64,000 bases of DNA from Aquilaria yunnanensis (Eukaryota; Streptophyta; Magnoliopsida; Malvales; Thymelaeaceae), in assembly GCA_039654915.1 (NCBI GenBank), contig CM077597.1:35252001-35316000 (forward strand), in the 5' to 3' direction. The translations under genes were made by a program, and so were the position numbers. The notes under the pieces were generated by a model. It did not search any database. It worked only from the letters and a program-made list of their open reading frames with translations, and had not been told where the DNA came from. Positions 9,811 to 59,387 of the stretch are shown in pieces; positions within the stretch are counted from its first letter, which is position 1; each line of letters opens with the position of its first letter.

Positions 9811-9822
9811 GCTCTGATACCA
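9811..9822 (-). other. Primer-binding site, initiator tRNA-Met type
   Basis: The minus strand reads TGGTATCAGAGC, three bases inside the 5' LTR end. It is complementary to the 3' end of plant initiator tRNA-Met, the usual minus-strand primer for chromoviruses and Copia elements. Confidence 0.9.
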
Positions 9823-9825
9823 AGC

Positions 9826-30367: not shown

Positions 30368-30372
30368 GTAGC

Positions 30373-33617: not shown

Positions 33618-34474
33618 TGATAGCCAAAGTCTATCGCCTCTATCTAGCCGCACTCCCTGTCACAAGAATGGCCAGAAGAAAACTGGCGCTACCCGAGAAA
33701 AGGTGGGATCATACACCTCGGGAGATAGCCGAAGAGCTCCGAGCTCGGCATGCCAGGAAACATGAGGATACTACTAGGCCCCCAAGGTTGTCAACAGATC
33801 ACCTTCGGGAAAGAGGCACCAGCTATTGTGGGCCGAACATGATCTTTCCGAAGGTGAAACTCCCTGAAGCTGGGAACCCCCGAACTGAGGGTATTCTCCC
33901 GAAGAGGCACCGTCCGTACCAGAGGACGACCTCGCCCAGGGACCTCGGGAGTACGGCAGGAGCATTTAAGGAAGCCTCTGACATGTTGCCCACAGACATC
34001 ACAAGTCACCTCAAACGGCGCCCTAACACGTCGACGCCATCAAAGTCACATCATGGCCCGTCTCGGCTCAAGGCTCAAGGGGCCTGCCACCGGCTACTTG
34101 CCCCCTACGCCCAGAAATTCAGGAACATCTGACCGTACACATGTCAAGATCTGAACGGGCTAGGCACTCCTATAAATACCAGGGAATACACCCTGGCAAA
34201 AGGCGGGCAAAGATCCTGACTCCCCACTCTGAGAAAGTACTACCAGGCGAGTTCACTGAACCCCTCAGTGCTATTTCCTCTGCCTTCTCTCAGCACCACT
34301 GACTTGGGCGTCGGAGGCTCCTCCCCGGAAAAACACCCCGGGGACCTCCTAACACACTTTTTCTGAGCATCTCAGGTATTCTACCTCAGGCGAAACGGCC
34401 ACCAGGCGTTCTTCCTCTCCGGGAGTCCCTCCATCAGTCACCATGACTACCAACGATGAAGCCCCCGGGCATCA
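33618..34474 (+). repeat. 5' LTR of element A (857 bp)
   Basis: TGATAGCCAAAG..CCGGGCATCA. It contains the LTR promoter TATAAATA at 34171-34178 and an ATG at 34443 that opens the gag frame while still inside the LTR. Confidence 0.96.
34171..34178 (+). promoter_or_regulatory. TATA box of the element A 5' LTR
   Basis: TATAAATA, about 300 bp before the LTR end; the same box is at 55448-55455 in the 3' LTR. Transcription of gag-pol would start shortly downstream. Confidence 0.75.
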
Positions 34475-36103
34475 TTTGGCGCCGTCTGTGGGAAACCGCT
34501 CTGAGATTGCCATCGTTGAAACTCGGCATTCTAAGGACAAGGGACTCCCGAGGTCTCCGTCCGCGCCTGAGACACAACCGGCTGCTGAGCAAACACTCCC
34601 AGGGACTTCTGCGCCTGAGGAAGACCGCCCTCTAGTAGTCACTATGAGTTTTATGAGGGAGTTTCAGCGTTCGGTCGTGGCCAAAATGACACAGCAGATC
34701 GACCGAAGATGGTCACAGCAGACACAGGCCCAAAGACCCCCTCACCTGCAGGCCCTCGGGAGAAGAGTCAGAGGTCGACTCATCGCAGTTCGAGAAGCGT
34801 AGACCCGCGTGAAGAGTCGTCCACGGAGAATATACCCCTCGGGAAACGGCCTGTGGGACAAACTAGGTCCAAGCGACCGAAAGTCTCACAGCGAAGGAGT
34901 TCGTCGCCTGAGGCGAGGTCCCTGTCCCCTCAGCGCCAAACTCGCTCCCCGAAGAGGCGCTGACGATCTCCCTTCCCAGAGGAAGAGCCTAATGCCACAG
35001 TTCTCATGGAAAGAATACTAGCGCGGCTAGACAGGGTGGAAAAGTAGGTAGCTCGCAAACCCGTCTGGGACAGGCTCACGGAAGCCTTCTGCGAAGATGG
35101 GTCCCCGTTAACCCGGACCGTGGCCGAGGCAACCATGCCAGGCGACTTCAGGGTACCTCGGCTGGAGATTTATGATGGCCGCACTGATCCCCAGGCCCAT
35201 CTGACCAAGTACAGACGCAGCATGATAATGCATGGTGCTGATGACGCTACCATGTGTAAATGCTTCGAGGTCACCCTCACGGGACCAGCAACTGCGTGGT
35301 ACAACTCATTGCCACCAGAAGCCATCACTGAGTTCGAGGAGTTGTCCACGGCCTTCGCGCAACAATTTATTGGAAGCCGGCCAACGGCGAAGATGCCTGT
35401 TCAGATGTTCGACATAGAGCAGAGAAACGTAGAAACAATTCGAGACTACGTCGAAAGATTCAACAGGGAAGCTCTAAGTGTCCCGGACTTCCGGCCCAAA
35501 ATACGCATCCTCGCCATGACACGGGGCCTTCGGCGAGACTCACAGCTGTTTTATGAGTTCTCAAAGGACCCCCCGGACACCCTCGGAGAATTTTGCCGAA
35601 GGGCCGAACAGCACATGACTGCCGAGGAGCTGAGAATGGCTGGGCCGAAGTCCGGTCACAACCGCGCCGAATGGTCCAACCAGCAAGCCCGACATCCAAC
35701 CGAACAGGCGAGCCGACCTCGGAGGATGCGGGGAAGCAAACTTCAAAGCTTCACACCTCTGAGCACTACACGGACAAACATCCTTATGGCACTAGAAAGG
35801 CAGGGGACGCAAATTCGACGGCCAAGGGCCATCACCGCTGATAACAAGAAAAACGTCAAGAAGTTCTGCCAGTTTCATCGAGACCACGGCCACGACATCG
35901 AAGACTGCTTCCAACTGAAGAAGTACATTGAGTCGCTGATAAAACTCGGCCAACTTCAGAAATATCTGCGGATGCCTTCCCCAAAAGGAAGAAAAGATGA
36001 GGAAGAAAAGATGAGGAAGAAAGGGCCCAAGACAAGGACTATGACTCCGACAGACGGAGAAACAGAAGTCCGAAAAAGCGCCCTCCTCCTCCTGCAGGGG
36101 TGA
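34443..36103 (+). pseudogene. gag: gag of element A, broken
   Basis: Capsid polyprotein homologous to the gag part of element B. The frame opens at ATG 34443 within the LTR and crosses the PBS. Compared with B it has a 1-nt deletion between about 34730 and 34790, a TGA at 34961-34963 and a TAG at 35047-35049. It then runs open from 35120 through the gag core (EIYDGRTDPQAHL, FTQQF-like) to the C-terminal motif FCQFHRDHGHDIEDC near 35865. Near 36000-36030 a local near-duplication of an AAGATGAGGAAGAA unit shifts the frame, ending this frame at 36103. Confidence 0.88.
34477..34494 (+). other. Primer-binding site of element A
   Basis: TGGCGCCGTCTGTGGGAA, two bases after the 5' LTR. It is identical to the PBS of element B. 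The TGGCGCCG start is typical of Tat/Athila-group elements; I do not assign the tRNA with certainty. Confidence 0.85.
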
Positions 36104-39100
36104 TACAAACCATCACCACGGGGCTCCCATCCTCGGAAAGAAAGCAGAAGGCCAGAGAGATTGCGGTCATGGAATATCAAAGCCCGACAAAGAAACTGGC
36201 TCGCAAGGACGGATCCACCGTCATCTTCCCCCATGACAATCCGCTGCTAATCATGGCAAGGATAGGGAACTGGGACGTCAAGAGAGTGTTGCTGGATGAT
36301 GCATCAAATACTGACGTCCTATTCTCGCATTTACTGCCGAATTTGGACGTCTCCAGCAGCGAGCTCAAGCCTGTCACCTCGCCTACCTTCGGGGTTGGAC
36401 TCGGATGGATCGACCTCCCCCTGATGATGAAAGGAACTTCGGTCGACGGAACAGCTGAGTTGTACGCCTCCACAATGGCGAGATTTATCGTCATGGACGT
36501 TCCTTCTTCGTACAACGCCATCCTTGGAAGGCAGACACAGGGAAACCTGCACATTCGCCCTGATGTGAAGTACTTGACTGTCACATTCGCCACCAAGGAT
36601 AGGGATGCAGAGGTCTTCATAGATCAAGCCGAGGTAAGGAAGGTGTTTGTGAAAGCACGAAAAGCTCCGGCAAATAACCTCGCACAAACAATGGAGGCAA
36701 AGGCACCAGAGAAGGGCAAAGAAGGAGAACCCCCAAGAGCGAAAACAGAAACAGTGGAACTTGTCCAAGGACAATCTACCCGAATAGGGAAGAGCTTGCC
36801 CGAAGGTGACAAGAAAAACCTTGTATCTTTTCCACTGGGAAATAAAGATCTCTTTGCCTACTCGCCGAAAGACATGCCAGGGGTGCACCCTGGCATAATA
36901 CAGCATAGCCTCAAAGTAAGCCCGGAAGCAAAGCCTGTCCGGCAAAAAAAGCGAAGCATCTCAGCCCATAAGAGCAACTTTGTGAAAACCGAAGTCCAAC
37001 GCCTGTTGGACGCTGAAGTCATCAGGGAGGTCAAATACCCCGAATGGTTAAGCAACGTGGTGATTGCCACAAAAGAAGGCAGCAGCAAACTTCGGATGTG
37101 CATCGACTTCAGAAACTTGAACGATGCTTGCCCGAAAGACTCATACCCTCTTCCGCCAATAGACCAACTGGTAGACTCAACTGCCGAATACGGGCTCCTA
37201 AGTTTCCTAGACGCTTTTAGTGGCTACCATCAAATAAGGATGGACCCCAAAGATGAAGAAAAAACCGCCTTCATCACCGAGGAAGGAACATACTACTACG
37301 TCAGGATGCCCTTCGGGCTTAAAAATGCAGGAGCCACCTACCAAAGGTTGATGAAAAAGGTCTTTAAGGACCAAATGGGGAGAAACATGGAGGTGTATGT
37401 TGATGATATGATAGTCAAAAGCAAGCTCCCTCGCAACCACGTTGCAGATCTAGAGGAAACCTTCCAAAAGCTCAAAGCCTTCTGGATTCGTCTCAATCCT
37501 GAAAAATGCATGTTCAGGGTGACCTCGGGAAAGTTCCTTGGGTACATGGTATCCGAAAGAGGCATCGATGCTAACCCCGAAAAAATTAAGGCTCTGCTCG
37601 AGTTCCGAACTCCTGCCACAGTAAGAGATGTGCAGAGACTCACCGAAAGAATAACCTCTCTTAGCAGGTTCATTTCCAGGTACGGAGATAGGTGTCGGCC
37701 TTTCTTCAAAGTCTTCACTAAGGCAGCAAAAAAGGAAGGCAACCTTGGAAGTGATGATCACCCTTGGGATCAAGACTGCCAAAAAGCCTGGGAAGAACTC
37801 AAAATCTACCTAGCCAGCCCTGCTGACTCTGCGACAACCTCGCGAGGGAGAACCCCTCGTATTATACCTTGCCGTCATGGAAAAAGCTGTGAGCTCGGTC
37901 CTCGTGAAAGAAGAAGGGCCAAAACAATGGCTGGTCTACTATGTAAGCAAATCCCTGCATGGCGCCGAAGTCAGGTACCCTCTGCTGCAAAAAGCTATAT
38001 ACGCCTTGGTGCTTGCAGGGAGAAGGCTGTGACCATACTTTCAGGCTCACCCCATCATCGTCCGAAGTAGCCTACCACTACGGGACGTTATGAGGAAAGT
38101 GGATCATTCGGGAAGGCTCTCCAAGTGGTGTATAGAGCTTGGCGAACACGATATCACCTATGAACCTCGGAAGGCCATAAAAGCTCAAGCACTGGCAGAA
38201 TTCATTGCCGAAATACCCACCACTAAGGACAGTCATCCAGATCTGAACGAAGGTGAGCCAGAATGAACCTTACATGTTGACGGAGCCTCGGGGTCCGAGC
38301 ACCAGGGAGCTGGGGTAATTATCAGAGGCCCCGAAGGCCTAGAGGTAATGAAGGCTATCAAGTTTACCTTCAACGTCACTAACAATGTGGCTGAGTATGA
38401 GGCCCTCATAGCGGGATTACGACTGGCCAGAAAAATCGGCGTGAGAAACTTAAAGGCTTACAGCGATTCCCAGCTAGTAGTTCGACAGACGGCAGGAGAC
38501 TATGGGGCGAAGGACCCAACCTTGGCAAAATACCACGAGCTGGTAGCAAAAATCATTCAAGAGTTTGACGCCGTACGGGTCGAACACGTACCTCGGCAGA
38601 AAAACACCGAGGCAGACTGCTTGGCGAAGTCAAAAACCTACACCGAGGTGCTAGACCATCCGAGCATCTCAGTGCTGAGCATATCGACCTCGGGAAAAGG
38701 CTGGAGGGATCCAATAAAAAGGTACCTCGCGGAAAATGTACTCCCCGAAGACCCCGGTGATGCTGCAAAACTGCGAAGGCGCTCCGGGCATTTCTTTCTG
38801 ATCGGTGAAGAACTATACCGACAGGGATACGCGAATCCACTGCAAAGATGTGTGAACGAAGAGGATACTGAAATAATCCTTGAAGAAGTCCACGAAGGCA
38901 TGTGTGGTTCACATATTGGAACCGATGCCCTGGCGGCAGTGATACTTTGCCAAGGATACTTCTGGCCTACCCTGAGAAAGGACGCAAGGCAGTTCATCCG
39001 GAAATGCGGTAGTTGCCAGAAACACGCGAACATCCAGAGGGCACCCTCGGAAATGGTAACCTCGGCTGACTATCCCTGGCCCTTCGCAGTCTGGGGTATA

Positions 39101-39937
39101 GACCTTATTGGGCCGCTCCCCTCAGCGCCCGGAGGCGTGAAATTCTGCGTGGTAGCGGTAGACTATTTCTCCAAATGGGTCGAGGCAGAACCACTAGCAA
39201 CTATCTCGGCAAAAGAAGTGCAGAAGTTTGTATGGAAGAACATTGTATGCAGATTCGGCATACCGAGGGTACTAGTGGCTGATAATGGATCCCAATTCAT
39301 AGACAAAGGATTCCAGGAATTTATCAGCAACCTCGGAATAAAGATGCACTTCGCCCCAGTAGCTCACCCCCAAAGCAACGGGCAGGTGGAAGTATCTAAC
39401 AGGACCATAAAAGATGGCCTGAAGAAGAGACTGGGGGAAGCAAAAGGGAAATGGCCAGGAGAACTCCAAAGCGTGTTATGGAGTTACCGAACGACGCCCC
39501 GAAGAGCCACAGGGGAGACTCCCTTCTCACTCGTCTTCGGAACAGAGGCCATCATCCCTATCGAGATAGTTAGACCATCAGTACGGGTGCAAGTATTTGA
39601 TGAAGGAGGAAACGACCTCGGCCTAAGAACGAAGCTCGACCTCGTCGGCGAGCACAAAGAAATAGCTGAGCTGAGAAGAAAAGCTTTCCAGCAAAGAGTG
39701 GCCGCGGCTATAAATTTACGAGCCAGGCCAAAAGAAATAAAAAAAGGGGACCTCGTTCTCCGAAAGGCTGACTTTGCACCCCGAAAGCCATCTCACAGGG
39801 TATTTCGCGCGAACTGGGAAGGACCTTATCTGGTTCTTGCCGAAGTACGAAAAGGCGTGTACAAACTTTGCGACGCCGAAGCCGTAGAATTGAAAAACAC
39901 TTGGCACTCAGATGCCTTGAAGAAATTCTACGCTTAA
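36100..39937 (+). pseudogene. pol: pol of element A (protease to integrase), broken
   Basis: Homologous to element B throughout. Protease remnant near 36289 (LLDDASNTDVLF; the Gly of the DxG box is Ala here). RT extends to about 37600 with an intact YVDD at 37396-37407. A 1-nt insertion near 37820 shifts the frame within the first RNase H. In the new frame a TGA at 38030-38032 replaces CGA and a TGA at 38264-38266 replaces TGG. From 38348 the frame is open through the second, archaeal-type RNase H and integrase (HHCC zinc region near 38890-39020; core D-D-E motifs WGIDLIG, VADNGSQF, NGQVEVSN) to the stop at 39935-39937. A small in-frame deletion removes six residues after FGVG. Confidence 0.9.
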
Positions 39938-40020
39938 GATGGAGCGGAAGGATTATGTTGTGCAAAAAATATCCTAAGTACAGAATGTCCTTGAGAAAGA
40001 ATTCTTAAGTGTACAAAATG

Positions 40021-40420
40021 GTGCAAGACAAAATTCCGCGAAGGTGTTCGCCATAAAAAAGCGCAGATGTGATTTTCCGAAGTCCCTTGAGCCATCATGC
40101 TCGGAAAAATGGAAAACAAAAATTTTGCGAAAGTACTCGCCGCAAAAAGCGCAGATATGATTTTCCGAAGTCCCTTGAGCCATCATGCTCGGGAAAATGG
40201 AAAACAAAAATTTTGCGAAAGTACTCGCCGCAAAAAGCGCAGATATGATTTTCCGAAGTCCCTTGAGCCATCATGCTCGGGAAAGTGGGAAACAAAAATC
40301 TTGCGAAAATACTCGTCGAAAAAAGCGGATAATAAATTTTGGTGACTGCAGGTTTCCTGAAGTCTCTTGAGCGAACTTGTTCGGGACAATGGAAATGCAA
40401 AATCTTGCAAAAAGACTTAG
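40021..40420 (+). repeat. 88-bp tandem array of element A
   Basis: AGTCCCTTGAGCCATCATGC starts at 40081, 40169 and 40257 (period 88), with diverged units on each side (the next AGTCTCTTGAG is at 40361). Lies between pol and the antisense gene, as does the array of element B. Confidence 0.9.
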
Positions 40421-40632
40421 CCAAAAAATATATTCATTAAGAATGATCAGGCTTACAAAGAAGAAGTGCCCGAAGAAGGAACACAAAAACGAAGAGGAAA
40501 AAAGGAAAAGGCCCCTAAAACAACCTAAGGGTTCTCGGCGTCCCGGGAGCCACCAGCCTCTGTGCCCTTTTCCACCACCTTCGGCGCCGGAATTGTGGAA
40601 GGCAGGTTCAGGTGCTCGATTTTGGACCAGGA

Positions 40633-40970
40633 TCACCGAGGCCCCTCGGGAATGATGAGAGCTTCCAAAAAAGAGAGGTCCAGACCTGGGAACCTCTCAA
40701 GGACTTGGTGCCGAGCAAGGCAGAATCCGTCTTGGAAGGCGACCTTGGTCATTTGGTCGGATTTGTCCTTCTCAACCTCAAGGTCCTCGAGCTCGTCCTT
40801 CAAGTCTGCAACCTCCTTCTTCAGCGCCTTCACCCTCTTCTTCGCATCGGGCTCCTTCTTCAAAGACTGGACCTCGGCTTCGAGAGCTTTTTTCTCACTC
40901 ACCAACGACCGAATGAGATTGTCAGAATCCGACTTATCTTTGAGAAGGTCTTGGTTGGCAGCAAGCATCC
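40633..40970 (-). pseudogene. Antisense gene of element A, 3' part of last exon, cut off by element B
   Basis: Minus-strand open frame ending at 40633. It encodes a Lys/Glu-rich coiled coil and the conserved tail (DQMTKVAFQDGFCLARHQVL) found in the last exon of the element B gene. It is the continuation of the exon that stops at 52135-52139: the two halves share the CATCC target duplication and rejoin in frame. The shorter C-terminus results from a TGA just after PEGPR. Confidence 0.88.
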
Positions 40971-41837
40971 TGATGGCCTGGGGCCTCATCGTTGTGAGTC
41001 ATGATGACTGTTGAAGAGACTTCTAGGAGGAAGAACGCCTGGAAGGTGGATCGCCCCAAGGAGAGTACCTGAAAAGCTGGTAAACAGGGTTAGGAGGCCC
41101 CTGGAGTGTTTTTCCGGGGGGGGAGCCTCCGACGCCCAAGTCAGTGGTGGCCGGAAAAAGGAGAAAGTCACTAGCTCAAAGAGAAAGGCAGAAAAGTCTC
41201 GCCTGGTATTTTCTCAGAGTGTGGGAGCTATATCTCCGGCCAACCAACCTCCTGTCAAGTATTTATTTCCTGTATATATAGGAATACCTAGCCCGTTCAG
41301 ATCATGACACGTGTGCGGTCGGATGCTCCTGAACTTCTGGGCGTAGGGGACAGATAGTTGGTAACCAGATGGCCTCGAGCCTTGTGCTGAGACGGGCCAT
41401 GATGTGATTCTGATGGCGTCTGCGCGTCAGGGCGACTTTTTACGTCTGTGGTGGGACGTGTCAGAGGCTTCCTTAAATGCTTCCTTAAATGCTCCTGCCG
41501 TACTCCCGAGGTCCTTGGGCGTGGTCGTCCTCTAGTTCAGACAGAGACTCTTCGGGAAGCATACCCTCAGTTCGGGGGTTCCCAGTTCCAGGGGGTTCCG
41601 CCTTCGGGGATATCATGTTCGGGCAGCAATGTCTGGTGCCACTTTTCCGAAGGCGCGCTGTTCACAACCTTGGGGGGCGAATAGAGTCCTCAAGTTTTAC
41701 TGGCGTGCCGAGGCTCGGAGCTCTCCGGCTATCTCCCGAGGTGCATGATTCCACCTGTTCCCGGGAAACGCCAGTTCTTCTGGCCATTGTTGTGGCCGGG
41801 TGTTCGGCCAGATTGAGGCGATAGCCTTTGGCTATCA
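40971..41837 (-). repeat. 3' LTR of element B (867 bp)
   Basis: In plus orientation TGATGGCCTGGG..TTGGCTATCA. Partner of 51268-52134. Confidence 0.96.
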
Positions 41838-42381: not shown

Positions 42382-42389
42382 TATAAATA
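42382..42389 (+). promoter_or_regulatory. TATA box of the element B antisense gene
   Basis: TATAAATA within GGCCTATAAATAGCCCATTCC, 300 bp before the ATG and followed by a CT-rich leader (CTCTCTCTCTCTCTGC at about 42427). The same 21-bp block occurs in element A at the same place relative to its antisense gene (54376-54383). A 12-codon upstream ORF starts at 42520 in B only. Confidence 0.75.
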
Positions 42390-42681: not shown

Positions 42682-45030
42682 ATGTCTACGATGCTTGTTC
42701 CCGAGAGCTGGAAACCTCTTCTGGCCCATCCTTGCTGTACCACCCCCGAAAAACTAGAGAGGTGGAAGAAAAAATTCTTTCTTCCCTCTTACGCTGTGAC
42801 CAGGCTGCCTCGTTCTAGCCATTTTGCTTTTTCAAACCGCGGCGATGAGGTTACCGTCTTCCGAGCCCAACTGAAGGCCGGACTTCGGTATCCTCCCCCG
42901 AAGGTGGTTTGCGAGTTCTGCCAATTCCATGGCATTGCTGTGAACCAGCTTCCCCCGAACGCGTACTGCTATTTTAACGCCTACCTCTGCATGTGTGGCG
43001 TGTTCGGGATAGAGCCCCACTTCATCATTTTCATGCAGTACTACAAGCTCTACGTGGTCCCGAAGGGTGGCTTCTATTTCCTGCTGCCTCGGGGATCCGG
43101 GAGCAAAAAATTCACCTTCACCTTCGACACGAAGGATAGCTGGCGGGGGTGGCAGCCTAAGTTCTTTTTCCTGAAGGTGGATAGGAACTGGTCTGATGTC
43201 CCGACCAGATGGGCTCAGGGAGTGCTGAACGCAGACGTCGTTGATCCGAGGATGCTGCTGACCCCACCGTTGGCTTCCGTGTTCGCGGATTTCGAGGCAC
43301 GCATTCGGGCAGTCGCTGACTGGGTTCCCGAGGTCTCTCCTCGTGCCCTTTACCCCTTTCCTATCAACTGGAGGTTGATGACCGAAGAAGTCCTTCGGGA
43401 GCTGAAAGTGGTTAAGGAGCACGAGACTGACCTCAATATGCCCGCTCCCGCCATCGCCGGGAAGGACTCCTGGCTGGTCAAGCTCCTTAAGGGGGAGACT
43501 TCTTTCGAATCTTTTGCCGAAAGTGAGTAATCTTCCACCCCTTTATATTTTTCCTCGGACTTACGCTGATATTTCTTCTCTTTTTCAGAGATGGGCGATG
43601 GGGCTGCCGCCTATTACAAGGCCCTCTTTTCTGGCCAAGTGGAGAAGGGGGAGCAGACAAAGAAGGCGGCTTCCCGAAGAAGGAAGTCGACAGGGGCGGG
43701 GCCCTCGGCGAAGCGAGCTAGGAAGGCTGTCCAGCCTCCTCAGCCAGAGCTTTCGGAAGAAGAAGCTGGCAAAGAGGCTGGTCTTGTTGAAATTTCACCG
43801 GCCGAGGTCCCCGCTACTTCCGCCGAGGTGCCTCCTCCCGACCTCGAGGCCCCCAGAAACATTGTAGTGGTAGAAGTACCTACTGCCGAGGAGCGGTATT
43901 GGCAGAAGGGTAAGGGTCTTTCTACCGAGGGGCCCGAGGATCCCGAGGACACTATCTCCGAGGTTCCTCCAGGTATGCCTTCAGCCGAAGTTCAGCTCCT
44001 TTGCTTTTCACGAATTTTTCTTCTACTCCTAACTTCCTTCTCACTTTCAGAGGAGCCTCTTACTGCTGGCTGGAGGGCCATTCATGAGAGGAAACGGGCC
44101 CTCCGCGATGCCAAAATCCCTGAGGGGAAGATCCCCTTGAAGCCCTTTTGGACAATCACGGAGGATATGAATTTGTTCTCCGACGATTGTCCAAAAATGA
44201 CAAAGGAGATTTGGAAGGGGATGACCACTGACGCCTCCTTCCGGGCCATTGCGGCGGCTCACCCGAGGGATAATACCCTCGCCGCAAAAGTCACCGAGCA
44301 TGCTGCTCAGGTATAGTCTTTACACTCTTTTTCCTCAATTTTCTAAGTGTTTAGATTTGTACTAACCTAGACTTTTGCCTTGCCGTAGCTGCTGGAGTAC
44401 GCTGGTTACCTCCGAGTTCGGGTGGCCAGAGAGGCTGCCTCCAAGGATGCGACTTCGCGGGAACTCAGTGAAGCGAAGGCTTCACTTGCGAAGGTGGTCG
44501 CCAGCAATCAGCAGCTGGCAGCGGATTGTTCTCAGCAAATCGCCGTCGTTCGGGAGGAGTTCTCGAAGAAGAGAGAAGAACTTGAAAAGGACTCTTCCCG
44601 GAAGATTGCCGACCTCGGCGACCAAGTAAAAGGGCTGCTCGCCGCCAACGGAGATCTTGTCAAGGACAAGGCTGTTTCTGACGGTCTTGCGGCGAGGTTG
44701 ACGGATGAGAATAATGCTCTCCGAGCCGAGGTCGAGGCTCTGAAGAAGGAGTCCGGAGGGACGCTGGGGATAAGCGAGCTGGAGGAGGAGATTGCTGAGC
44801 TGAGGGACGAGCTCAACGACCTTGGCGTTCAAAAACATACTTCTGATCAAATGGCCAAGGTCGCCTTTCAGGACGGCTTCTGCCTTGCTTGGCACCAAGT
44901 CCTGCAGAGGTTCCCAGATTTGGACCTCTGTTTTCTGGAGGGCCTAAATATTCCTGAGGGACCTCGGTGGCAGTGGTCCAAGGTCGAGCATCTGAAGCTT
45001 CCTGGTCTTCGTCCGCCCGGCTCTCCCTAG
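42682..45030 (+). CDS. Antisense four-exon gene of element B (Transposase_28-like / coiled-coil protein)
   Basis: Extra gene on the strand opposite to gag-pol, between pol and the 3' LTR. Exons: 42682-43522, 43589-43972, 44051-44310 and 44389-45030. Introns are 66, 78 and 78 bp; all begin GT (GTGAGT, GTATGC, GTATAG) and end AG after pyrimidine-rich tracts, and their phases (1, 1, 0) join exactly to give 708 aa. The first exon resembles the plant 'putative gypsy type transposon' family (Pfam Transposase_28): FRAQLKAGLRYPP at about residue 60, then a Cys/aromatic-rich core (CEFCQFHGIAV) and SWRGWQPKFFFL. Exon 2 has a basic bipartite NLS-like patch (RRRKSTGAGPSAKRARK) and a Pro/Glu-rich acidic stretch. 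Exon 4 is a Lys/Glu-rich coiled coil. Antisense ORFs at this position are known in Grande/RIRE2-like Tat elements; function unknown. Exon borders are predicted from sequence and from their conservation in element A. Confidence 0.85.
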
Positions 45031-45129
45031 TTTGTTTTAGGGCTCCTCTTATTTTTCTCCTTTGTGCTCCTTCTTTGGGCACTTCTTTTGTAAGGCAGCG
45101 TTTGCTCTAAATGAACAATCTTTTGGCTA

Positions 45130-45700
45130 AGTCCTTTCTTGCAAGTTTCTTCATTTCCACTGTCCCGAACACGTTTGCTCAAGAGACTTTCGGAAAACCT
45201 GCAACCAAAGAAACTTTTTACCTTCCTTTGTCCCGAGTGTGCTCGCTCAAGAGACTTTCTGGAAAGTTTGTAAAAATTTGGCTAAGTCTTTTGCAGGCTT
45301 TTTGTTCCCTTTTATCCCGAACATGTTCGCTCAAGGGACTTCGGAAAACCTTCAGCCAAATTTTTCTGTCTTCCTATTGTCCCGAGCATATTTGCTCAAG
45401 GGACTTAGGAAAATTTTCATGAGATTGCTCATTTCCCTTTTTCCCGAGCACGTTCGCTCAAGGGTGTTCGGAAATTACCTCTGCTTTTGTTTTGGCGTGT
45501 ACTTTTGCGAGATTCTTGCTTTCCCTTTTTCCCGAGCATGTTCGCTCAAGGGTGTTCGAAAAATTTTCTCTGCACTGATTATGCCGAGTACCTTTGCAAG
45601 ATTCTTGTTTCCCATTTTTCCCGAGCATAGTGGCTCAAGGGACTTCGGGAAGTCACATCTGCTTTTTTCGTGGCGAGCACCTTCGTGGAATTCTGTCTTG
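45130..45700 (-). repeat. Tandem array of element B, seven imperfect units
   Basis: Plus-strand motif CCCGA(G/A)(C/T)..GCTCAAG(A/G)G begins at 45164, 45232, 45316, 45381, 45443, 45531 and 45620 (spacing 62-89 bp). The unit is related in sequence to the 88-bp array of element A on the opposite strand (CTTGAGC..GCTCGGG). Confidence 0.85.
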
Positions 45701-45800
45701 GACAATTTGGTATACTTAAAAATTTTTCTCAAGACCATTCTTCTCCAGACCATTCTGTACTTAGAATATTTCTTGTACAATATATCTCCTCCGCTCAACC

Positions 45801-48800
45801 TTAGGCGTAGAATTTTTTCAAGGCGTCTGAATGCCAAGTGTTTTTCAATTCTACGCCTTCGGCGTCGCCAAGCTTGTACACGCCTTTTTGTACTTCGGTG
45901 AGAACCAGATAAGGTCCTTCCCAATTTGCGCGAAGTACTCCGTGAGATGGCCTTCGAGGTGCAAAGTCGGCCTTTCGGAGAACGAGGTCTCCTTTTTTGA
46001 TTTCTTTTGGCCTGGCTTTTAAGTTGATAGCCGCGGCCACTCTTTGCTGGAAAGCTTTTCTTCTCAGCTCGGCTATTTCTCTGTGTTCGGCCACAAGGTC
46101 GAGCTTAGTTCTCAGACCGAGGTCGTTTCCGCCTTCATCAAATACTTGCACCCGTATTGAAGGCTGAACTATCTCTATTGGGATAATGGCCTCTGTTCCG
46201 AAGACGAGTGAGAAGGGAGTTTCCCCTGTGGCTCTTCGTGGCGTCGTTCGGTAGCTCCACAATACACTTTGGAGTTCTCCTGGCCATTTCCCCTTGGCTT
46301 CCCCAAGTCTCTTTTTCAGGCCATCTTTTATGGTCCTGTTTGATACTTCCACCTGCCCATTGCTTTGGGGGTGAGCTACTGGGGCGAAGTGCATCTTTAT
46401 TCCGAGGTCGCTGATGAATTCCTGGAATCCTTTGTCTATGAACTGGGATCCATTATCAGCTACTAGTACCCTCGGTATGCCAAATCTGCATACGATGTTC
46501 TTCCATACGAACTTCTGCACTTCTTTTGCCGAGATAGTTGCTAGTGGTTCTGCCTTTACCCACTTTGAGAAATAGTCCACTGCTACCACGCAGAATTTCA
46601 CGCCTCCGGGCGCTGTGGGGAGTGGCCCAATAAGGTCTATACCCCAGACTGCGAAGGGCCAAGGATAGTCTGCCGACGTTACCATTTCCGAGGGTATCCT
46701 CTGGATTTTTGCATGTCTCTGGCAACTACCGCACTTCTGGACGAACTGCCTTGCGTCCTTTCTCAGGGTAGGCCAGAAGTATCCTTGGCGGAGTATCACT
46801 GCTGCAAGGGCATCAGTTCCAATGTGCGAGCCGCACATGCCTTCGTGAACTTCTTCGAGGACCATCTCAGTATCCTCTTTGCCCACACATCTCTGCAGCG
46901 GATTTGCATATCCTTGCCGATATAACTCTTCACCAATCAGGAAGAATCTTCCGGCGCGTCTTCGCAGTCTTGCAGCATTGCCGGCGTCTTCGGGAAGCTC
47001 ATTCTCTGCGAGGTATTTCTTTATGGGGTCCTTCCACCCTGTTCCCGAGGTCGTTACGCTTAGCACGGAGATGCTTGGATGGTCTAGCACCTCGGTGTAT
47101 GTTTTGGACTTCGCTAAGCAATCTGCCTCAGTGTTATTCCGCCGGGGTACATTTTCGATCCGCACGGCGTCAAACTCTTGGATGAGTTTTGTTACCAGCT
47201 CGTGGTATTTTGCCAACATTGGGTCCTTCGCCCCATAATCTCCTGCCGTCTGCCGAACTACCTGCTGGGAATCGCTGTGAGCCCTTAAGTTTCTCACGCC
47301 AATCTTTCTGGCCAAGCGTAATCCCGCTATGAGGGCCTCATACTCAGCCACATTATTGGTGACGTTGAAGCTGAACTTGATAGCCTTCATCACCTCTAGG
47401 CCTTCGGGTCCTCTGATAACTATTCCAGCTCCCTGGTGTTCGGACCCCGAGGCTCCGTCAACATGCAAGGTCCATTCTGGCTCACCTTCTTTCGGATCTG
47501 AGTGGTTCTCCTCAGTGGTGGGTATTTCGGCGATAAAATCTGCCAATGCTTGGGCTTTTATGGCCTTCCGAGGCTCATACGTGATTTCGTGTTCGCCAAG
47601 CTCTATGCACCACTTGGAGAGCCTTCCCGAATGATCAACTCTCTTCATAACATCCCGTAGTGGTAGACTACTTCGGACGATGATGGGGTGAGCCTGGAAA
47701 TATGGTCGCAGTCTTCTTCCTGCAAGCACCAAGGCGTATATAGCTTTTTGAAGCAAAGGGTACCTGACTGCGGCGCCATGCAGGGACTTGCTGACATAGT
47801 AGACCGGCCATTGTTTCGGCCCTTCTTCTTTCACCAGGACCGAGCTCACGGCCTTTTCTGTGACGGCAAGGTACAGTACGAGGGGTTCTCCCTCCCGAGG
47901 TTGTCGCAGAGTCGGCAGGCTGGCCAGGTAGACTTTGAGTTCTTCCCAGGCCTTTTGGCAATCTTCGTCCCAAGGATGATTGTTTCTTCCGAGGTCGCCT
48001 TCCATCTTTGCTGCCTTTGTGAGGACTTTGAAGAAAGGTCTATACCTATCTCCGTACCTGGAAATAAACCTGCTCAGAGAGGTTATTCTTCCGGTTAGTC
48101 TCTGCACGTCTTTGACTGTGGCAGGAGTTCGGAACTCAAGCAGAGCCTTAATCTTCTCAGGATTGGCGTCGATGCCTCTTTCGGATACCATGTACCCAAG
48201 GAATTTTCCCGAGGTCACGCCGAAGATACACTTCTCGGGATTAAGGCGAATCCCGAAGGCTCTGAGCTTTTGGAAGGTTTCCTCCAAATCTGCAACGTGG
48301 TAGCCGGGCAGCTTGCTTTTGACTATCATATCATCAACATATACCTCCATGTTTCTCCCCATTTGGTCCTTGAAGACCTTGTTCATCAGTCTCTGGTAGG
48401 TGGCTCCTGCTTTTTTGAGCCCGAAGGGCATTCTGACATAGCAGTACGTTCCTCCCTCGGTGATGAAGGCAGTTTTCTCTTCATCTTCGGGGTCCATCCT
48501 TATCTGATGGTAGCCGCTGAAGGCATCAAGGAAGCTCAAGAGCCCGTATTCGGCCGTTGAATCTACCAGTTGATCTATTGGCGGGAGGGGAAATGAGTCT
48601 TTCGGGCAAGCATCGTTCAAGTTTCTGAAATCAATGCACATCCGGAGTTTGCTGCTACCTTCTTTTGTGGCAATGACCACGTTGCTTAACCATTCGGGGT
48701 ATTTTACCTCCCTGATAACTTCAGCATCCAATAGGCGCTGGACTTCGGTTTTCATGAAGTTGCTTTTGTGGGCTGAGATGCTTCGTTTCTTTTGCCTGAT

Positions 48801-50888
48801 AGGTTTTGCTTCCGGGCTTACTTTGAGGCTATGCTGTATTATGCCAGGGTTCACTCCTGGCATGTCTTTCGGCGAGTAGGCAAACAGATCTTTATTTTTC
48901 AGCAGAAATGATACAAGATTTTCCTTGTCACCTTTGGCCAAGCTCTTCCCTATTCGGGTAGATTGTCCTGGGACAAGATCTACTGCTTCCGTTTCTGCTT
49001 CTGCGGGATCTCCTTCTTTGCCTTTCTCCTGCGCCTTTGCCTCCACCGTTTGTGTAGAGTTGTTTGCCGGAGCCTTTCGTGCTTTTACAAACACCTTTCT
49101 TACCTCGGCTTGGTCGATGAAGACCTCTGCATCTCCATCCTTGGTGGCGAATGTGACAGTCAAGTACTTCACATCGGGGCGAATGTGCAGGTTCCCCTGA
49201 GTCTGCCTTCCAAGGATGGCATTGTACGAAGACGGGACGTCCATGACGATGAATCTTGCCATTGTGGACGCGTACAACTCAGCTGCTCCGTCTACCGAAG
49301 TGCCTTTCATCATCAAGGGGAGGTCGATCCCTCCGAGGACGGGTAGTTCGGATGGCCCAACGCCGAAGGTGGGCGTGGTGACAGGTTTAAGCTCGCTGCT
49401 GGAGATGCCCAAGCTCGGCAGTAAGTGCGAGAATAGGACGTCAGCATTTGAGCCATCATCAAGCAACACTTTCTTAACGTCCCAGTTCCCTATTCTCGCC
49501 ATTATCAGCAGCGGGTCGTCGTGGGGGAAGACGACGGTGGAGCCATCTTTGCGAGCCAGTTTCTTTGATGGACTTTGATACTCCATAACTGCAATTTCTC
49601 TGGCCTTCCGCTTTCTTTCCGAGGATGGGAGCCCCGTGGTGATGGTTTGGATGACCCCTACTGGAGGTGGAGGGCGCCTTTTTGGACTTCTGTTTCTCCG
49701 CCTATCGGAGTCATAGTCCTCCTTTTCGGCCCTCTCTTCCTCCTCTTTTCTGCCTTTTGGGGAGGGCATCCGCAGGTATTTGCGAAGTTGGCCCTGTTTG
49801 ATCAGCGACTCTATGTACTTCTTCAGCTGGAAGCAGTCTTCGGTGTCATGACCGTGGTCGCAATGAAACTGGCAGAACTTCTTGGCATTCTTCTTATTAT
49901 CGGCGGCCATGGCCTTTGGCTGCCGAATCTGCGTCCTTTGCCTTTCCAGCGCCATGAGAATGTTGGTCCATGTCGTGCTCAAGGGCGTGAAACTTTGAGG
50001 TTTCCTTCCTCGCATTCGTCGTGGTCGGCCTGTGTGTTCAGAAAGATGCCGAGCTTGCTGACTGGACCCTTCGGCGCGGTGATGATCAGACTTCGGCCCC
50101 GCCATCCTCAATTCCTCGGCTGTCATGTGCTGCTCTGCCCTTCGGTAAAATTCTCCAAGGGTCTCCGGGGGGTCCTTTGAGAACTCGTAGAACAGCTGTG
50201 AGTCACGCCGAAGGCCCCGTGTCATAGCGAGGATACGGATTTCGGGCCGGAAGTCCGGGACGCTGAGTGCTTCCCTGTTGAATCGTTCGACATAGTCTCG
50301 GATTGTCTCTCCGTTTCTCTGCTCTATGTCAAACATCTGCATAGGCATTTTGGCCATCGGCCTGCTCCCAATGAACTGCTGGGTGAAGGCTATGGACAAC
50401 TCCTGGAACTCAGTCATAGTCCCTGGGGGCAAGGAATTGTACCATGCTGTTGCTGGGCCCGTGAGGGTGACTTCGAAGCATTTGCACATGGTAGCGTTAT
50501 CAGCTCCGTGCATTATCATGCTCCGTCTGTACTTCGTCAGATGGGCCTGTGGATCAGTCCGGCCATCATAGATCTCCAGCCTAAGCACTCTGAAGTCGCC
50601 TGGCATAGCTGCCTCAACGACGGCTCGAATAAACGGGGAGTCATCTTCGCATAATGCCCCCGACAGCCTGTCCCAAACGGGTTTTCTGGCCACTTGCTTC
50701 TCCACTCTGTCCAGCCGTGCCAATATCCTTTCCATAAGCGCAGTGGCACTAGGACCATTTTCGCGGGAGGGAGATCGACGGCGCCTCTTCGGGGAGCGAG
50801 TTCGGCGCGGAGGGGTCAGGGACCTCGCCTCGGGCGACGAACTGCTTCGCTGTGAGACTCTCGGTCGCTTGGACCCGGTTTGTCCCAC
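45801..50888 (-). CDS. gag-pol: Gag-Pol polyprotein of element B (1695 codons open)
   Basis: Single open frame encoding gag (about 1-400; C-terminal motif CQFHCDHGHDTEDC at 339-352), aspartic protease (LLDDGS at 475-480), RT (about 700-900, YVDD at 850-853), a first RNase H (about 1000-1120) that lacks the usual catalytic aspartate (LYLAVTE in place of YTDAS), and a second, archaeal-type RNase H (D1144, E1182 or E1184, D1206, D1256). Integrase follows, with zinc residues H1348, H1355, C1386, C1389 and core D1418, D1478, E1514 (35 residues between the last two). There is no chromodomain. A tether RNase H plus aRNase H is characteristic of the Tat clade. The Met at 50888 is probably not the true start: the same frame continues upstream to 51299, interrupted only by TAG at 51024-51026. 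No frameshift was found against A. Probably expressed from the 5' LTR at 51268-52134. Confidence 0.95.
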   Translation of the reverse strand: MGQTGSKRPRVSQRSSSSPEARSLTPPRRTRSPKRRRRSPSRENGPSATALMERILARLDRVEKQVARKPVWDRLSGALCEDDSPFIRAVVEAAMPGDFRVLRLEIYDGRTDPQAHLTKYRRSMIMHGADNATMCKCFEVTLTGPATAWYNSLPPGTMTEFQELSIAFTQQFIGSRPMAKMPMQMFDIEQRNGETIRDYVERFNREALSVPDFRPEIRILAMTRGLRRDSQLFYEFSKDPPETLGEFYRRAEQHMTAEELRMAGPKSDHHRAEGSSQQARHLSEHTGRPRRMRGRKPQSFTPLSTTWTNILMALERQRTQIRQPKAMAADNKKNAKKFCQFHCDHGHDTEDCFQLKKYIESLIKQGQLRKYLRMPSPKGRKEEEERAEKEDYDSDRRRNRSPKRRPPPPVGVIQTITTGLPSSERKRKAREIAVMEYQSPSKKLARKDGSTVVFPHDDPLLIMARIGNWDVKKVLLDDGSNADVLFSHLLPSLGISSSELKPVTTPTFGVGPSELPVLGGIDLPLMMKGTSVDGAAELYASTMARFIVMDVPSSYNAILGRQTQGNLHIRPDVKYLTVTFATKDGDAEVFIDQAEVRKVFVKARKAPANNSTQTVEAKAQEKGKEGDPAEAETEAVDLVPGQSTRIGKSLAKGDKENLVSFLLKNKDLFAYSPKDMPGVNPGIIQHSLKVSPEAKPIRQKKRSISAHKSNFMKTEVQRLLDAEVIREVKYPEWLSNVVIATKEGSSKLRMCIDFRNLNDACPKDSFPLPPIDQLVDSTAEYGLLSFLDAFSGYHQIRMDPEDEEKTAFITEGGTYCYVRMPFGLKKAGATYQRLMNKVFKDQMGRNMEVYVDDMIVKSKLPGYHVADLEETFQKLRAFGIRLNPEKCIFGVTSGKFLGYMVSERGIDANPEKIKALLEFRTPATVKDVQRLTGRITSLSRFISRYGDRYRPFFKVLTKAAKMEGDLGRNNHPWDEDCQKAWEELKVYLASLPTLRQPREGEPLVLYLAVTEKAVSSVLVKEEGPKQWPVYYVSKSLHGAAVRYPLLQKAIYALVLAGRRLRPYFQAHPIIVRSSLPLRDVMKRVDHSGRLSKWCIELGEHEITYEPRKAIKAQALADFIAEIPTTEENHSDPKEGEPEWTLHVDGASGSEHQGAGIVIRGPEGLEVMKAIKFSFNVTNNVAEYEALIAGLRLARKIGVRNLRAHSDSQQVVRQTAGDYGAKDPMLAKYHELVTKLIQEFDAVRIENVPRRNNTEADCLAKSKTYTEVLDHPSISVLSVTTSGTGWKDPIKKYLAENELPEDAGNAARLRRRAGRFFLIGEELYRQGYANPLQRCVGKEDTEMVLEEVHEGMCGSHIGTDALAAVILRQGYFWPTLRKDARQFVQKCGSCQRHAKIQRIPSEMVTSADYPWPFAVWGIDLIGPLPTAPGGVKFCVVAVDYFSKWVKAEPLATISAKEVQKFVWKNIVCRFGIPRVLVADNGSQFIDKGFQEFISDLGIKMHFAPVAHPQSNGQVEVSNRTIKDGLKKRLGEAKGKWPGELQSVLWSYRTTPRRATGETPFSLVFGTEAIIPIEIVQPSIRVQVFDEGGNDLGLRTKLDLVAEHREIAELRRKAFQQRVAAAINLKARPKEIKKGDLVLRKADFAPRRPSHGVLRANWEGPYLVLTEVQKGVYKLGDAEGVELKNTWHSDALKKFYA

Positions 50889-51023
50889 AGGCCGTTTCCC
50901 GAGGGCTATATCTTCTGTGGATGATTCTACGCGAGGCTCTCCACTTCCTGAACTGCGGTATGTAGACTTGGGGCTTCTCTCCCAAGGGCGTGCTGATGAG
51001 GAGAGTTTCTGGGCCTGTGACTG

Positions 51024-51299
51024 CTATGGCCATCTTCGGTCGATCTGCTGAGTCATTTCAGCAACGACCGAGCGCTGAAAGTCCCTCAAGAAGGTCATGG
51101 TGATTACCAGAGGGCGGTCTTCCTCGGGCGTAGAAGTCTCTGGGAATGTCTGCTCAGCGGTCGGTTGTATCTCAGGCGCGGACGAGTACCGTGGGAGTCC
51201 CTTGTCCTTAGAACGCCGAGTCTCAACGACGGCGATTTGCGAGCGGGTTCCCACAGACGGCGCCAAATGATGGCCTAGGGCCTCATCGTTGTGAGGCAT
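51024..51299 (-). pseudogene. gag: N-terminal gag segment of element B, ended by TAG
   Basis: Open frame from ATG 51299, inside the 5' LTR, across the PBS, to TAG at 51024-51026, in the same frame as the main gag-pol ORF. Element A has the homologous segment from its LTR-internal ATG (34443) with CAG where B has TAG, so the stop is probably a C-to-T change. Conserved residues include RSKDKGLPR, EEDRPLV and EMTQQIDRRW. Whether translation starts here or at an internal Met such as MTFLRDFQRS cannot be decided from sequence. Confidence 0.7.
51248..51265 (-). other. Primer-binding site of element B
   Basis: The minus strand reads TGGCGCCGTCTGTGGGAA, two bases from the 5' LTR end, identical to element A. 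Confidence 0.85.
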
Positions 51300-52134
51300 G
51301 ATGACTGTTGAAGAGACTTCTAGGAGGAAGAATGCCTGGAAGGTGGATCGCCCCAAGAAGAGTACCTGAAAAGCTGGTAAACAGGGTTAGGAGGCCCCCG
51401 GAGTGTTTTTCCGGGGGGGGAGCCTCCGACGCCCAAGTCAGTGGTGGCCGGAAAAAGGAGAAAGTCACTAGCTCAAAGAGAAAGGCAGAAAAGTCTCGCC
51501 TGGTATTTTCTCAGAGTGTGGGAGCTGTATCTCCGGCCAACCAACCTCCTGTCAAGTATTTATTTCCTGTATATATAGGAATACCTAGCCCGTTCAGATC
51601 ATGACACGTGTGCGGTCGGATGCTCCTGAACTTCTGGGCGTAGGGGACAGATAGTTGGTAACCAGATGGCCTCGAGCATTGTGCTGAGACGGGCCATGAT
51701 GTGATTCTGATGGCGTCTGCGCGTCAGGGCAACTTTTTACGTCTGTGGTGGGACGTGTCAGAGGCTTCCTTAAATGCTTCATTAAATGCTCCTGCCGTAC
51801 TCCCGAGGTCCCTGGGCGAGGTCGTCCTCTAGTTCGAACAGAGCCTCTTCGGGAAGCATACCCTCAGTTCGGGGGTTCCCAGTTCCAGGGGGTTCCACCT
51901 TCGGGGATATCATGTTCGGGCAGCAATGTCCGGTGCCACTTTTCCGAAGGCGCGCTGTTCACAACCTTGGGGGGCGAATAGAGTCCTCAAGTTTTACTGG
52001 CGTGCCGAGGCTCGGAGCTCTCCGGCTATCTCCCGAGGTGCATGATTCCACCTGTTCCCGGGAAGCGCCAGTTCTTCTGGCCATTGTTGTGGCAGGGTGT
52101 TCGGCCAGATTGAGGCGATAGCCTTTGGCTATCA
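51268..52134 (-). repeat. 5' LTR of element B (867 bp)
   Basis: In plus orientation TGATGGCCTAGG..TTGGCTATCA. It has a minus-strand TATA-like CTATATATA at about 51570-51579 as promoter candidate. Directly followed on the right by TSD CATCC and then exon 4 of the antisense gene of element A. Confidence 0.96.
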
Positions 52135-54119
52135 CATCCCTTTCACCTGATCGCCGAGGTCAGCAATCTTCAGAGATGAGTTCTTCTCAAGATCTTCCTT
52201 CTCCTTCCGGAACTCCTCCCGAAGGGCAGCAACTTCTTTCTTCGCAGCATCTGACAGCTGCTGGTTCTTGGCGATCAATGCCGAGCGCGTGACCTTCGCT
52301 TTCTTTAAAGTCTCTAAGGCCGAAGCTCGGAACGTTGCCTGCCTGGCCACCCGAACTCGGAGAAAGCCGGCGTACCCCAGCAGCTGCAAAAAGATGAACG
52401 CAAGGTCAGTAAGAGCCAAGTACTTTGGAAAAATTGAAGGGAAAAAGGTGTGAAGAACATACCTGAGCAGCATGCTCGGTGACTTTCGCGGCAAGGGTGT
52501 CATCGTCCGGATGGGCCGCCGCAATAGCCTTGAAGGAGGCCTCTGTAAGCACCCCCTTCGAAATCTGTTTCGCCATTTCAGGACAGTCTTCGGAGTACAA
52601 GTTCATGTCCTCCGTGAATGTCCAGAAATGCTCTTTTGGTATCTTCCCTTGCGGGACTTTGGCGTCGTGAAGGGCCCGCGCCTTCGCGTGTTCGGCCGCC
52701 CAGTTCGAGGTAAACAACTCCCTTGCATGGCGAAAATGAGAAGCAGGTCAGAGACAAAGGAAAATTCAGAAAAATAAAAGAGCCACACTTGTTCTGAAAA
52801 CAACAAACCTGGCGGTACTTCGACCACAACGTCCTCGGAGTCCTGAGACACCTCGGTCGAAATCGCCTTGCCTTTCCTCTTGCGCCGCTCCTCGGCAGAA
52901 GGAGCCTCTGCCACGGCCTCTAGAAGGGCCTGCGTCGCAGAAGGGCTCTGGGGAGGGACGTCAGCGGAAGGAACCTCGACAGCGGCAGGGACCTCGGCAG
53001 AACCCTCAGTCGGCGGAATCTCGGCTGCCCCAGGCTCCTCGCCAGCCTCCTCGGAAATTTCTTCCAAAGGAACCTGGGCAGTTTTCTTTGCCCGTTTCGC
53101 CAAAGGCCCAGCGCCAGTGGACTTCCGCCTTCGGGAAGCCGCCCTCTTTATCTGATCGCCCTTCTCCACCTGGCCGGAGAAAAGGGACTTGTAAAATGCA
53201 GCAGTCCCGTCGCCCATCTCTGAAAAAGAAAAAAGACATCAGCGTAAGTCCGAGGGAAAAACAACAAGGGAGTAGAAGATAACTCACTTTCGACAACCGT
53301 TTCGAAAGAGATTTCCTCTCGAAGGAGCTGCACCAACCAAGAATCCTTCCCGACGATGGTAGGAGCCGGCATCTCGAGGTCGGTCTCGTGCTCCTTAACC
53401 ACCTTTAACTCCCGGAGGACCTCTTCGGTCATCAACCTCCAGTTGATAGGGAAGGGGTACAGAGAGCGCGGAGCGACCACGGGAGCCCAGTCAGAGACGG
53501 CGCGGATGCGGCCGTCGAAGTCCGTGAAAGTGGAAGCCAACTCTGGAGTCAACAACAACCTCGGATCAACGACGTCCACATCTAACCTTCCCTGAGCCCA
53601 TTTGGTCGGAACTTACGACCAGGCCTCCTCCATCTTCAGGAAGAAGAATTTCTGTTGCCACCCCCGCCAGCTGTCCTTGGTGGCGAAGGTGAACATGAAT
53701 TTTTTGCTCCCGGATCCCCGAGGTAGCATAAAGTAGAAGCCACCCTTTGGGACCACGAAGAGCTTGTAGTACTGCATGAAGATTATAAAATGGGGTTTTA
53801 TCCCGAAGACGCCACACATACAGAGGAAGGCGTTAAAATAGCAGTACGAGTTCGGGGGAAGCTGATTCACAGCAATGCCATGAAATTGGCAGAACTCGCA
53901 AACCATCTTCGGGGGAGGATACCGAAGTCCGGCCTTCAGCTGGGCTCGGAAAACGATAACCTTGGTACTACGGTTTGAAAAAGCATAGTGGTCAGGTCGT
54001 GGCAGCCGGGTAATGGCGTAAGAAGGAAGAAAGAACTTCTTCTTCCACCTCTATAATTTTTTAGGGGTAGTGCAACAAGGATGGGATAAAAGAGGCTGCC
54101 AGCTCTTAGAGATAGGCAT
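52135..54119 (-). pseudogene. Antisense gene of element A, exons 1-3 and start of exon 4
   Basis: Minus-strand homologue of the element B gene (42682-45030). ATG at 54119-54117 (MPISKSWQPLL). Stops occur early in exon 1 (TAG near 54060, where B has GAG) and near 53610 (TAA after EEAWS). Intron 1 (53220-53287) keeps GTGAGTTATC..TTTTTCAG at the same codon and phase as in B. Intron 2 starts GTTTGT near 52808 but its acceptor side is altered. Intron 3 keeps CAG|GTATGTTC..TTTTTGCAG|CTGCTGG (about 52394-52467). The coiled-coil exon is cut at 52135 by element B and continues at 40970-40633. Exon structure shared with B argues that the introns predate both insertions. Confidence 0.85.
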
Positions 54120-54375
54120 TTTGGACAGAAAAACGAGTTCGGAAAAGACAAGAAAACAGTTTCCGGAAAAAACTCGAAAGAACATTGGGATCAAAACACT
54201 CTAGGAAACAAAAACCCACCAAAAGATTTGCCAAAATCTGAGGTTGCCGTCGTGAAAGGTTGCCGGAAAAAAGCTCTGTTAAGACAGCTCCGCGCGAAGC
54301 AAGAGAAAGTGCAGAGAAAAGGATAAGCAGGGAAAAAGCAGAAGCAAAAGCAGAAGGGCCTATGACGGAATGGGC

Positions 54376-54893: not shown

Positions 54894-55751
54894 TGATAGC
54901 CAAAGTCTATCGCCTCTATCTGGCCGAACTCCCTGCCACAAGAATGGCCAGAAGAAAACTGGTGCTACCCGAGAAAATGTGGGATCATACACCTCGGGAG
55001 ATAGCCGAAGAGCTCCGAGCCCGGCACGCCAGGAAACCTGAGGATACTACTAGCCCCCCAAGGTTGTCAACAGATCGCCTTCGGGAAAGAGGCACCAGCT
55101 ATTGTGGGCCGAACATGATCTTTTCGAAGGTGAAACTCCCTGAAGCTGGGAACCCCCGAACTGAGGGTATGTCTCCCGAAGAGGCACCGTCCGTACCAGA
55201 GGACGACCTCGCCCAGGGACCTCGGGAGTACGGTTGGAGCATTTAAGGAAGCCTCTGACATGTCGCCTACAGACATCATAAGTCGCCTCAAACGGCGCCC
55301 TGACACGCCGACGCCATCAAAGTCATATCATGGCCCGTCTCGGCTCAAGGCTCAAGGGGCCTGCCACCGGCTACTTGCCCCCTATGCCCAGAAATTCAGG
55401 AACATCTGACCGTACACATGTCAAGATCTGAACGGGCTAGGCACTCCTATAAATACCAGGGAATACACCCTGGCAAAAGGCGGGCAATGATCCTGACTCC
55501 CCACTCTGAGAAAGTACTACCAGGCGAGTTCACTGAACCCCTCAGTGCTATTTGCCCTGCCTTCTCTCAGCACCACTGACTTGGGCGTCGGAGGCTCCTC
55601 CTCGGAAAAACACCCCGGGGACCTCCTAACCCACTTTTTCTGAGCATCTCAGGTATTCTACCTCAGGCGAAACGGCCACCAGGCGTTCTTCCTCTCCGGG
55701 AGTCCCTCCATCAGTCACCATGACTACCAACGATGAACCCCCCGGGCATCA
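54894..55751 (+). repeat. 3' LTR of element A (858 bp)
   Basis: TGATAGCC..GGGCATCA followed by the TSD CAATG. TATA box TATAAATA at 55448-55455. Confidence 0.96.
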
Positions 55752-57968: not shown

Positions 57969-57973
57969 ACTAA

Positions 57974-59382: not shown

Positions 59383-59387
59383 ACTAA

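Follow-up and report, generated by a model that had tools for sequence, protein, structure and literature searches.

In the window analysed here, a stretch of 64,000 nucleotides from Aquilaria yunnanensis, we detected a four-exon gene on the strand opposite to gag-pol in a Tat/Retand-type Ty3/gypsy LTR retrotransposon (element B). Our preferred reading, to which we assign a probability of roughly 0.8, is that element B carries a genuine antisense accessory gene, which would be spliced and encode a protein of 708 aa. Genes in elements that are copied through RNA are expected to lose their introns, and an antisense gene with four exons under selection shows a way for introns to persist in such an element. 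It also suggests that what ORF scans have listed as several ORFs in a widespread lineage of plant elements may be a single accessory gene. The exact junctions (43522/43589, 43972/44051 and 44310/44389) are now defined together with the full predicted protein, which combines a TRP28 domain, a stretch resembling a nuclear localisation signal (NLS) and a long helix.

The gene occupies positions 42682-45030 and is made up as follows.

42682..43522, plus strand: exon 1, residues 1-280; Transposase_28 at residues 60-124; dN/dS 0.168
43523..43588, plus strand: intron 1, 66 nt, GTGAGT..CAG, phase 1, CTGAT at -23
43589..43972, plus strand: exon 2, residues 281-408; basic NLS-like stretch at about 305-326; dN/dS 0.247
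43973..44050, plus strand: intron 2, 78 nt, GTATGC..CAG, phase 1, CTAAC at -22; open in frame in B
44051..44310, plus strand: exon 3, residues 409-495; dN/dS 0.252
44311..44388, plus strand: intron 3, 78 nt, GTATAG..TAG, phase 0, CTAAC (within TACTAAC) at -27
44389..45030, plus strand: exon 4, residues 496-708 and stop; predicted long helices; dN/dS 0.461 and 0.411 in its first and second parts

The joined frame of 2,127 nt has a single, terminal stop, and the coordinates, GT..AG ends, phases (1,1,0) and 708-aa frame proposed in a first-pass annotation of this DNA were all verified. Each of the three introns of B is divisible by three and intron 2 lacks an in-frame stop, so that its retention would add 26 residues. 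Read unspliced, exon 1 is an ORF of 282 aa (42682-43530).

Element B is bounded by two LTRs with the target site duplication (TSD) CATCC.

40971..41837, minus strand: 3' LTR of element B, TSD CATCC at 40966-40970
51268..52134, minus strand: 5' LTR of element B, TSD CATCC at 52135-52139
45801..50888, minus strand: gag-pol of B, an open frame of 1695 aa that covers gag, RT, RNase H, a second RNase H (RVT_3) and integrase

RNase H matches were found at 973-1071 and 1001-1098, RVT_3 at 1143-1261 and integrase parts from 1337 (positions in the piece scanned). B thus has a second RNase H (aRH), for which we take RVT_3 to stand, between RH and INT, one of the features by which Retand elements are recognized. 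Another, an antisense TRP28 (PF04195) ORF between pol and the 3' LTR, is present with 27.5 bits. The sizes obtained from the coordinates (LTR 867, internal region 9,430 and pol-3' LTR region 3,963 bp) are all inside the ranges given for Retand in PMC11963269 (315-1,194, 7,380-12,869 and 2,933-6,566 bp, respectively). On these sequence features, B likely belongs to the Retand lineage (Tat, Ty3/gypsy). This agrees with the first-pass annotation, which had called the element Tat-type, as the matches to gag, RT, two RNase H types and integrase bear out, and had placed the antisense gene between pol and the 3' LTR, as the layout of B supports.

A related element, A, is flanked by the target duplication CAATG and has its LTRs near 33618-34474 and 54894-55751. 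Element B sits within exon 4 of A's own antisense gene and interrupts A, so that the homologous gene lies in two pieces.

52135..54128, minus strand: antisense gene of A, exons 1-3 and start of exon 4; exon 1 with two in-frame stops; exon 4 interrupted by the B insertion
40525..40970, minus strand: rest of A's exon 4, on the far side of B; one in-frame stop ahead of the aligned end

The K2P distance between LTRs is 0.021 in B and 0.032 in A; the lower value makes B, the inserted element, the younger one, as the nesting demands. A is a dead copy, with three in-frame stops in the alignments of the antisense exons (two in exon 1 and one in exon 4), five in gag-pol, and the insertion of B. The TAG that ends exon 4 in B aligns with a TAG in A. 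The introns of A align at 53287-53220, 52808-52723 and 52462-52384, and their lengths of 68, 86 and 79 nt put neighbouring exons of A in different frames; despite this, each of these exons aligns to its own part of one protein. For introns 1 and 3, donor and acceptor sites are shared between A and B, as had been noted in the first pass, and both ends are kept. Intron 2 of A keeps its donor, and the nearest AG puts the frame off by one, leaving no in-frame acceptor; decay of the dead copy may explain this loss.

Comparison of A and B showed constraint on the protein. Substitutions are biased towards third positions of the spliced frame in exon 1 (p = 4e-8), exon 2 (p = 5e-4) and exon 3 (p = 0.017), while exon 4 gives p = 0.11 in its first part (not significant alone), 0.030 in its second and 0.0036 together. 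Over the 570 codons ahead of the insertion point dN/dS is 0.241, and exon 1 read in the shifted frames gives 0.97 and 1.88. These values were computed with our own Nei-Gojobori script; the 570 codons are those left after dropping codons that straddle introns and skipping six more (gaps, stops or no path), and the skipped codons were 1 of 130 in the second part of exon 4 and 13 of 1,696 in gag-pol. Compared with gag-pol (dN/dS 0.109 over 1,683 codons), the antisense gene is constrained, yet less so, and exon 4 appears to be constrained only weakly. Gaps within exons measure 3, 9, 8 and 13 nt in exon 2 (the last two nearby, together 21) and 48 nt in exon 4, thus totalling multiples of three, whereas the net A-B differences in intron length are 2, 8 and 1 nt. 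A gap of 4 that opens the alignment of the second part of exon 4 is the edge of the piece and is excluded from this list. Together with the splice sites shared by A and B, the codon bias and dN/dS uphold the intron-bearing structure of the first-pass annotation as one kept by selection. The comparison of exons with introns that it had called for, made here on A and B, gave dN/dS of 0.17-0.46 for the exons and showed intron 1 to be as conserved as exon 1.

Chance ORFs were rejected as an explanation. A 196-aa ORF on the minus strand in exon 1 was also rejected as the constrained frame: its third positions are more conserved than its first (0.878 against 0.751), and it contains four stops in A compared with only its own end in B.

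On a rival reading it is the antisense RNA that matters and not the protein: by pairing with genomic RNA, it would supply or titrate silencing by small RNAs. The antisense gene lies wholly inside the span of the sense transcript, and dsRNA effects have been proposed as a possible role of such genes (PMC7264820). We consider this improbable, since an RNA function leaves unexplained the codon-position bias, the gap lengths and the dN/dS of 0.17-0.25 in exons 1-3.

A single domain in the antisense protein exceeds its cutoff, Transposase_28 (TRP28, PF04195), just over the line in B (27.5 bits against a cutoff of 26.2) and scoring 34.6 bits in the A piece, 30.6 in the database sequence P0001 and 27.9 in P0002. 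The first-pass annotation had called for an HMM comparison with Transposase_28, and in the joined protein the match stands above cutoff. P0004 and the piece 43591-44310 gave zero Pfam family matches. The basic, NLS-like stretch of exon 2 is kept in A. For exon 4, bZIP_2 scored 18.7 bits with the whole protein and 20.4 with the exon alone, below its cutoff of 22.3 and covering the last 20 of 54 positions, and bZIP_1 scored 16.9 bits, below its cutoff of 27.6. A model of exon 4 from a single sequence consists of long helices (mean pLDDT 68), and a model of exon 1 from six sequences has no usable fold (mean pLDDT 33). Both were judged unfit for a fold search, and DNA binding by TRP28 thus rests on the prediction in PMC11963269. 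A sequence profile search of PDB returned two matches with E of 0.49 and 0.54, which we regard as noise.

Relatives were few. The full-length query had none at E <= 0.001 among the 7,997 candidates listed; exon 1 as a query matched three of 705 candidates, and a profile of four sequences matched five of 3,919 at E <= 0.01. With the exon 1 protein, 13 pattern matches and zero confirmed ones were obtained in a set of genomic contigs, and zero matches in a set of viral contigs. The database sequence P0003 carries the label Agrobacterium sp. ST15.13.040, yet it shares 96% identity with part of exon 1 of B; the assembly behind it probably contains plant DNA.

The first-pass annotation had seen hints of a captured host gene. 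Capture of a host gene together with its introns, in antisense and retained for a function derived from the host, would fit the host-like introns and the candidate promoter described below, both of which would be expected of a captured genomic segment. The domain content argues otherwise, PF04195 being associated with transposons; the relatives of exon 1 are A and five database fragments, none of them shown to be a host gene, and similar genes are described as lacking outside transposable elements in PMC7264820. The full-length protein search, over the 7,997 candidates listed, points the same way, and on the whole this is weak evidence. We think capture unlikely, and treat the gene as an accessory gene of the element.

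For the splice sites, we ranked every GT (99) and AG (175) in 42682-45030 with a simple score on a splice-site consensus, ties not listed. Zero GTs score above donors 1 and 2 and three above donor 3; zero AGs score above acceptors 1 and 2 and eight above acceptor 3. Each of the six introns of A and B contains exactly one CTRAY motif, the branch point consensus, starting 22-29 nt before the intron end. In 20,000 mononucleotide shuffles of the intron interiors, CTRAY fell within -18 to -35 in every B intron at a frequency of 0.00055. Between A and B, identity is 83.3% in intron 1, 82.3% in exon 1 and 72.1% in the third positions of exon 1; intron 1 is conserved as much as its neighbouring exon and does not resemble neutral sequence. 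Introns 2 and 3 (65.8% and 62.3%, gaps left out) are near the third positions of exons 2 and 3 and of the first part of exon 4 (58-63%). Intron 2 is the least secure of the three because A has no in-frame acceptor and the intron is open in frame in B. All five database relatives of exon 1 read E-S-(E/K) after E280, as an A|GTGAG or A|GTAAG donor would read, and P0001 extends across intron 1 and enters exon 2 in a different frame; both observations come from protein letters only. The antisense gene is thus confirmed at the level of sequence, and we infer its splicing from these signals. On another rival reading no splicing takes place, with exon 1 a stand-alone ORF of 282 aa and the downstream ORFs separate or decaying pieces. 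In its favour, conservation is highest in exon 1, intron 2 of B has no in-frame stop, and the survey in PMC11963269 counts single ORFs and never uses the word intron in its main text. This reading is very unlikely all the same: the codon bias of exons 2-4 persists in the splice-joined frame, the exons of A lie in different frames yet align as one protein, and splice sites and branch-point-like motifs are conserved, the intron 2 acceptor of A excepted.

Candidate transcription signals flank the gene on both sides.

42382..42389, plus strand: TATAAATA, candidate promoter box of the antisense gene
45110..45115, plus strand: AATGAA, candidate poly(A) element, found in A at 40438 (minus strand)

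The box TATAAATA lies 300 nt upstream of the start codon, inside a block of 23 bp that A and B share without a difference (at 54383 on the minus strand in A), and AATGAA is 3' of the stop in both elements. These putative signals would suit a gene that has a promoter and a poly(A) site of its own, like the reviewed Grande gene23. The leader was also scanned for bacterial promoters, a result that we set aside as irrelevant to a plant gene. There was no Rfam match at the gathering score and no tRNA according to ARAGORN.

In the mechanism that we propose, host RNA polymerase II would transcribe the antisense gene from its own promoter (TATAAATA at 42382), and the host spliceosome would remove the three short introns to yield an mRNA for the 708-aa protein. 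Copying through RNA would leave the introns in place, since on the genomic (sense) RNA they read as CT..AC, the complement, and not as GT..AG. They may even be useful, by giving the transcript a host-like mark that favours its export and protects it from silencing, and the conservation of intron 1 would fit such a use. The protein, with TRP28 at its N-terminus, the basic stretch resembling a nuclear localisation signal and a long C-terminal helix, would act as a nuclear regulator of the element associated with DNA or chromatin (in transcription, nuclear entry or integration), HBZ-like in its working. By analogy, this appears to be the most likely role, considering the NLS-like stretch, the predicted DNA binding of TRP28 (PMC11963269), the nuclear GENE23 and the spliced antisense regulators of deltaretroviruses; we put it forward tentatively, with the odds leaning somewhat against it.

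Antisense TRP28 genes are a known feature of Retand, and introns in them look new within the literature covered; the original Grande and extra-ORF papers are outside that literature, and an earlier description of introns is possible. TRP28 antisense ORFs are reported in all but two of 63 Retand clusters (PMC11963269), the TRP28 domain in just 23% of the Retand elements surveyed in PMC6317226, and TRP28 appears to be confined to proteins of flowering plants (PMC11963269). Among 104 antisense ORFs of at least 600 bp, 57 contain TRP28, and further antisense domains include 11 Smc domains (Vicient 2025, PMC11963269). The Retand ORFs described there are like the gene of B in belonging to Ty3/gypsy Tat elements with a long pol-3' LTR region and a PF04195 antisense ORF. 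They are treated singly, whereas in B the TRP28 and helical parts appear as exons of one gene. The word intron occurs zero times in the main text of PMC11963269 and in PMC7264820 as covered, and twice in PMC6317226, in passages on Ogre; a search for antisense and spliced transcripts is called for in PMC7264820. Across Retand, several antisense ORFs (TRP28 and Smc-type or coiled-coil) could be exons of one spliced nuclear gene, long inherited via an RNA intermediate because it is antisense, a generalization to which we give slightly less than an even chance. If true, this lineage-wide gene would be a natural mirror of the intron-bearing retrotransposition reporter.

Several known systems resemble parts of this arrangement. 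Maize Grande gene23 likewise lies in antisense in the region from pol to the 3' LTR and is transcribed from its own promoter (a candidate one in B), and its protein is nuclear (PMC7264820), as we infer for the B protein; the likeness is one of description. HTLV-1 HBZ and HTLV-2 APH-2 are spliced antisense genes of an LTR retroelement that encode nuclear regulators (PMC10186651), comparable to the splicing and role suggested for B. Unlike what is proposed for B, their antisense transcripts come from the 3' LTR, and they are compared with B as analogues. HBZ is a 31-kDa bZIP protein and APH-2 lacks bZIP (PMC10186651); with bZIP scores below the cutoffs, the B protein is at most an analogue of an HBZ-type bZIP factor. 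Plant LTR elements are generally without introns, Ogre and EVADE being the exceptions named in PMC12786077, and Ogre shares with B that a Tat-clade element contains an intron, there in gag-pol (PMC6317226, PMC12786077). A gene on the opposite strand of a DNA transposon has been described in PMC12477816.

The window contains further repeats. The stretches 33615-40425 and 45277-52137 of A and B are about 85% alike in opposite orientation and form an inverted repeat of 7 kb, a possible source of hairpin RNA. Tandem arrays adjoin pol in A (40056-40327) and B (45432-45683), with units of 88 and 89 bp in 3.1 and 2.8 copies; comparable arrays are reported in about half of the Retand clusters (PMC11963269). 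Element A is flanked by an inverted pair of 1.4 kb (30369-31816 and 57970-59386; 75.6% alike). In 1-12655, the repeat pairs 2-1048/10436-11482 and 3522-4706/11470-12655 are probably nested LTRs, and pol pieces on the minus strand at 4719-7727 match Tf2-1-type SH3, RNase H and RT, with a chromodomain match below cutoff.
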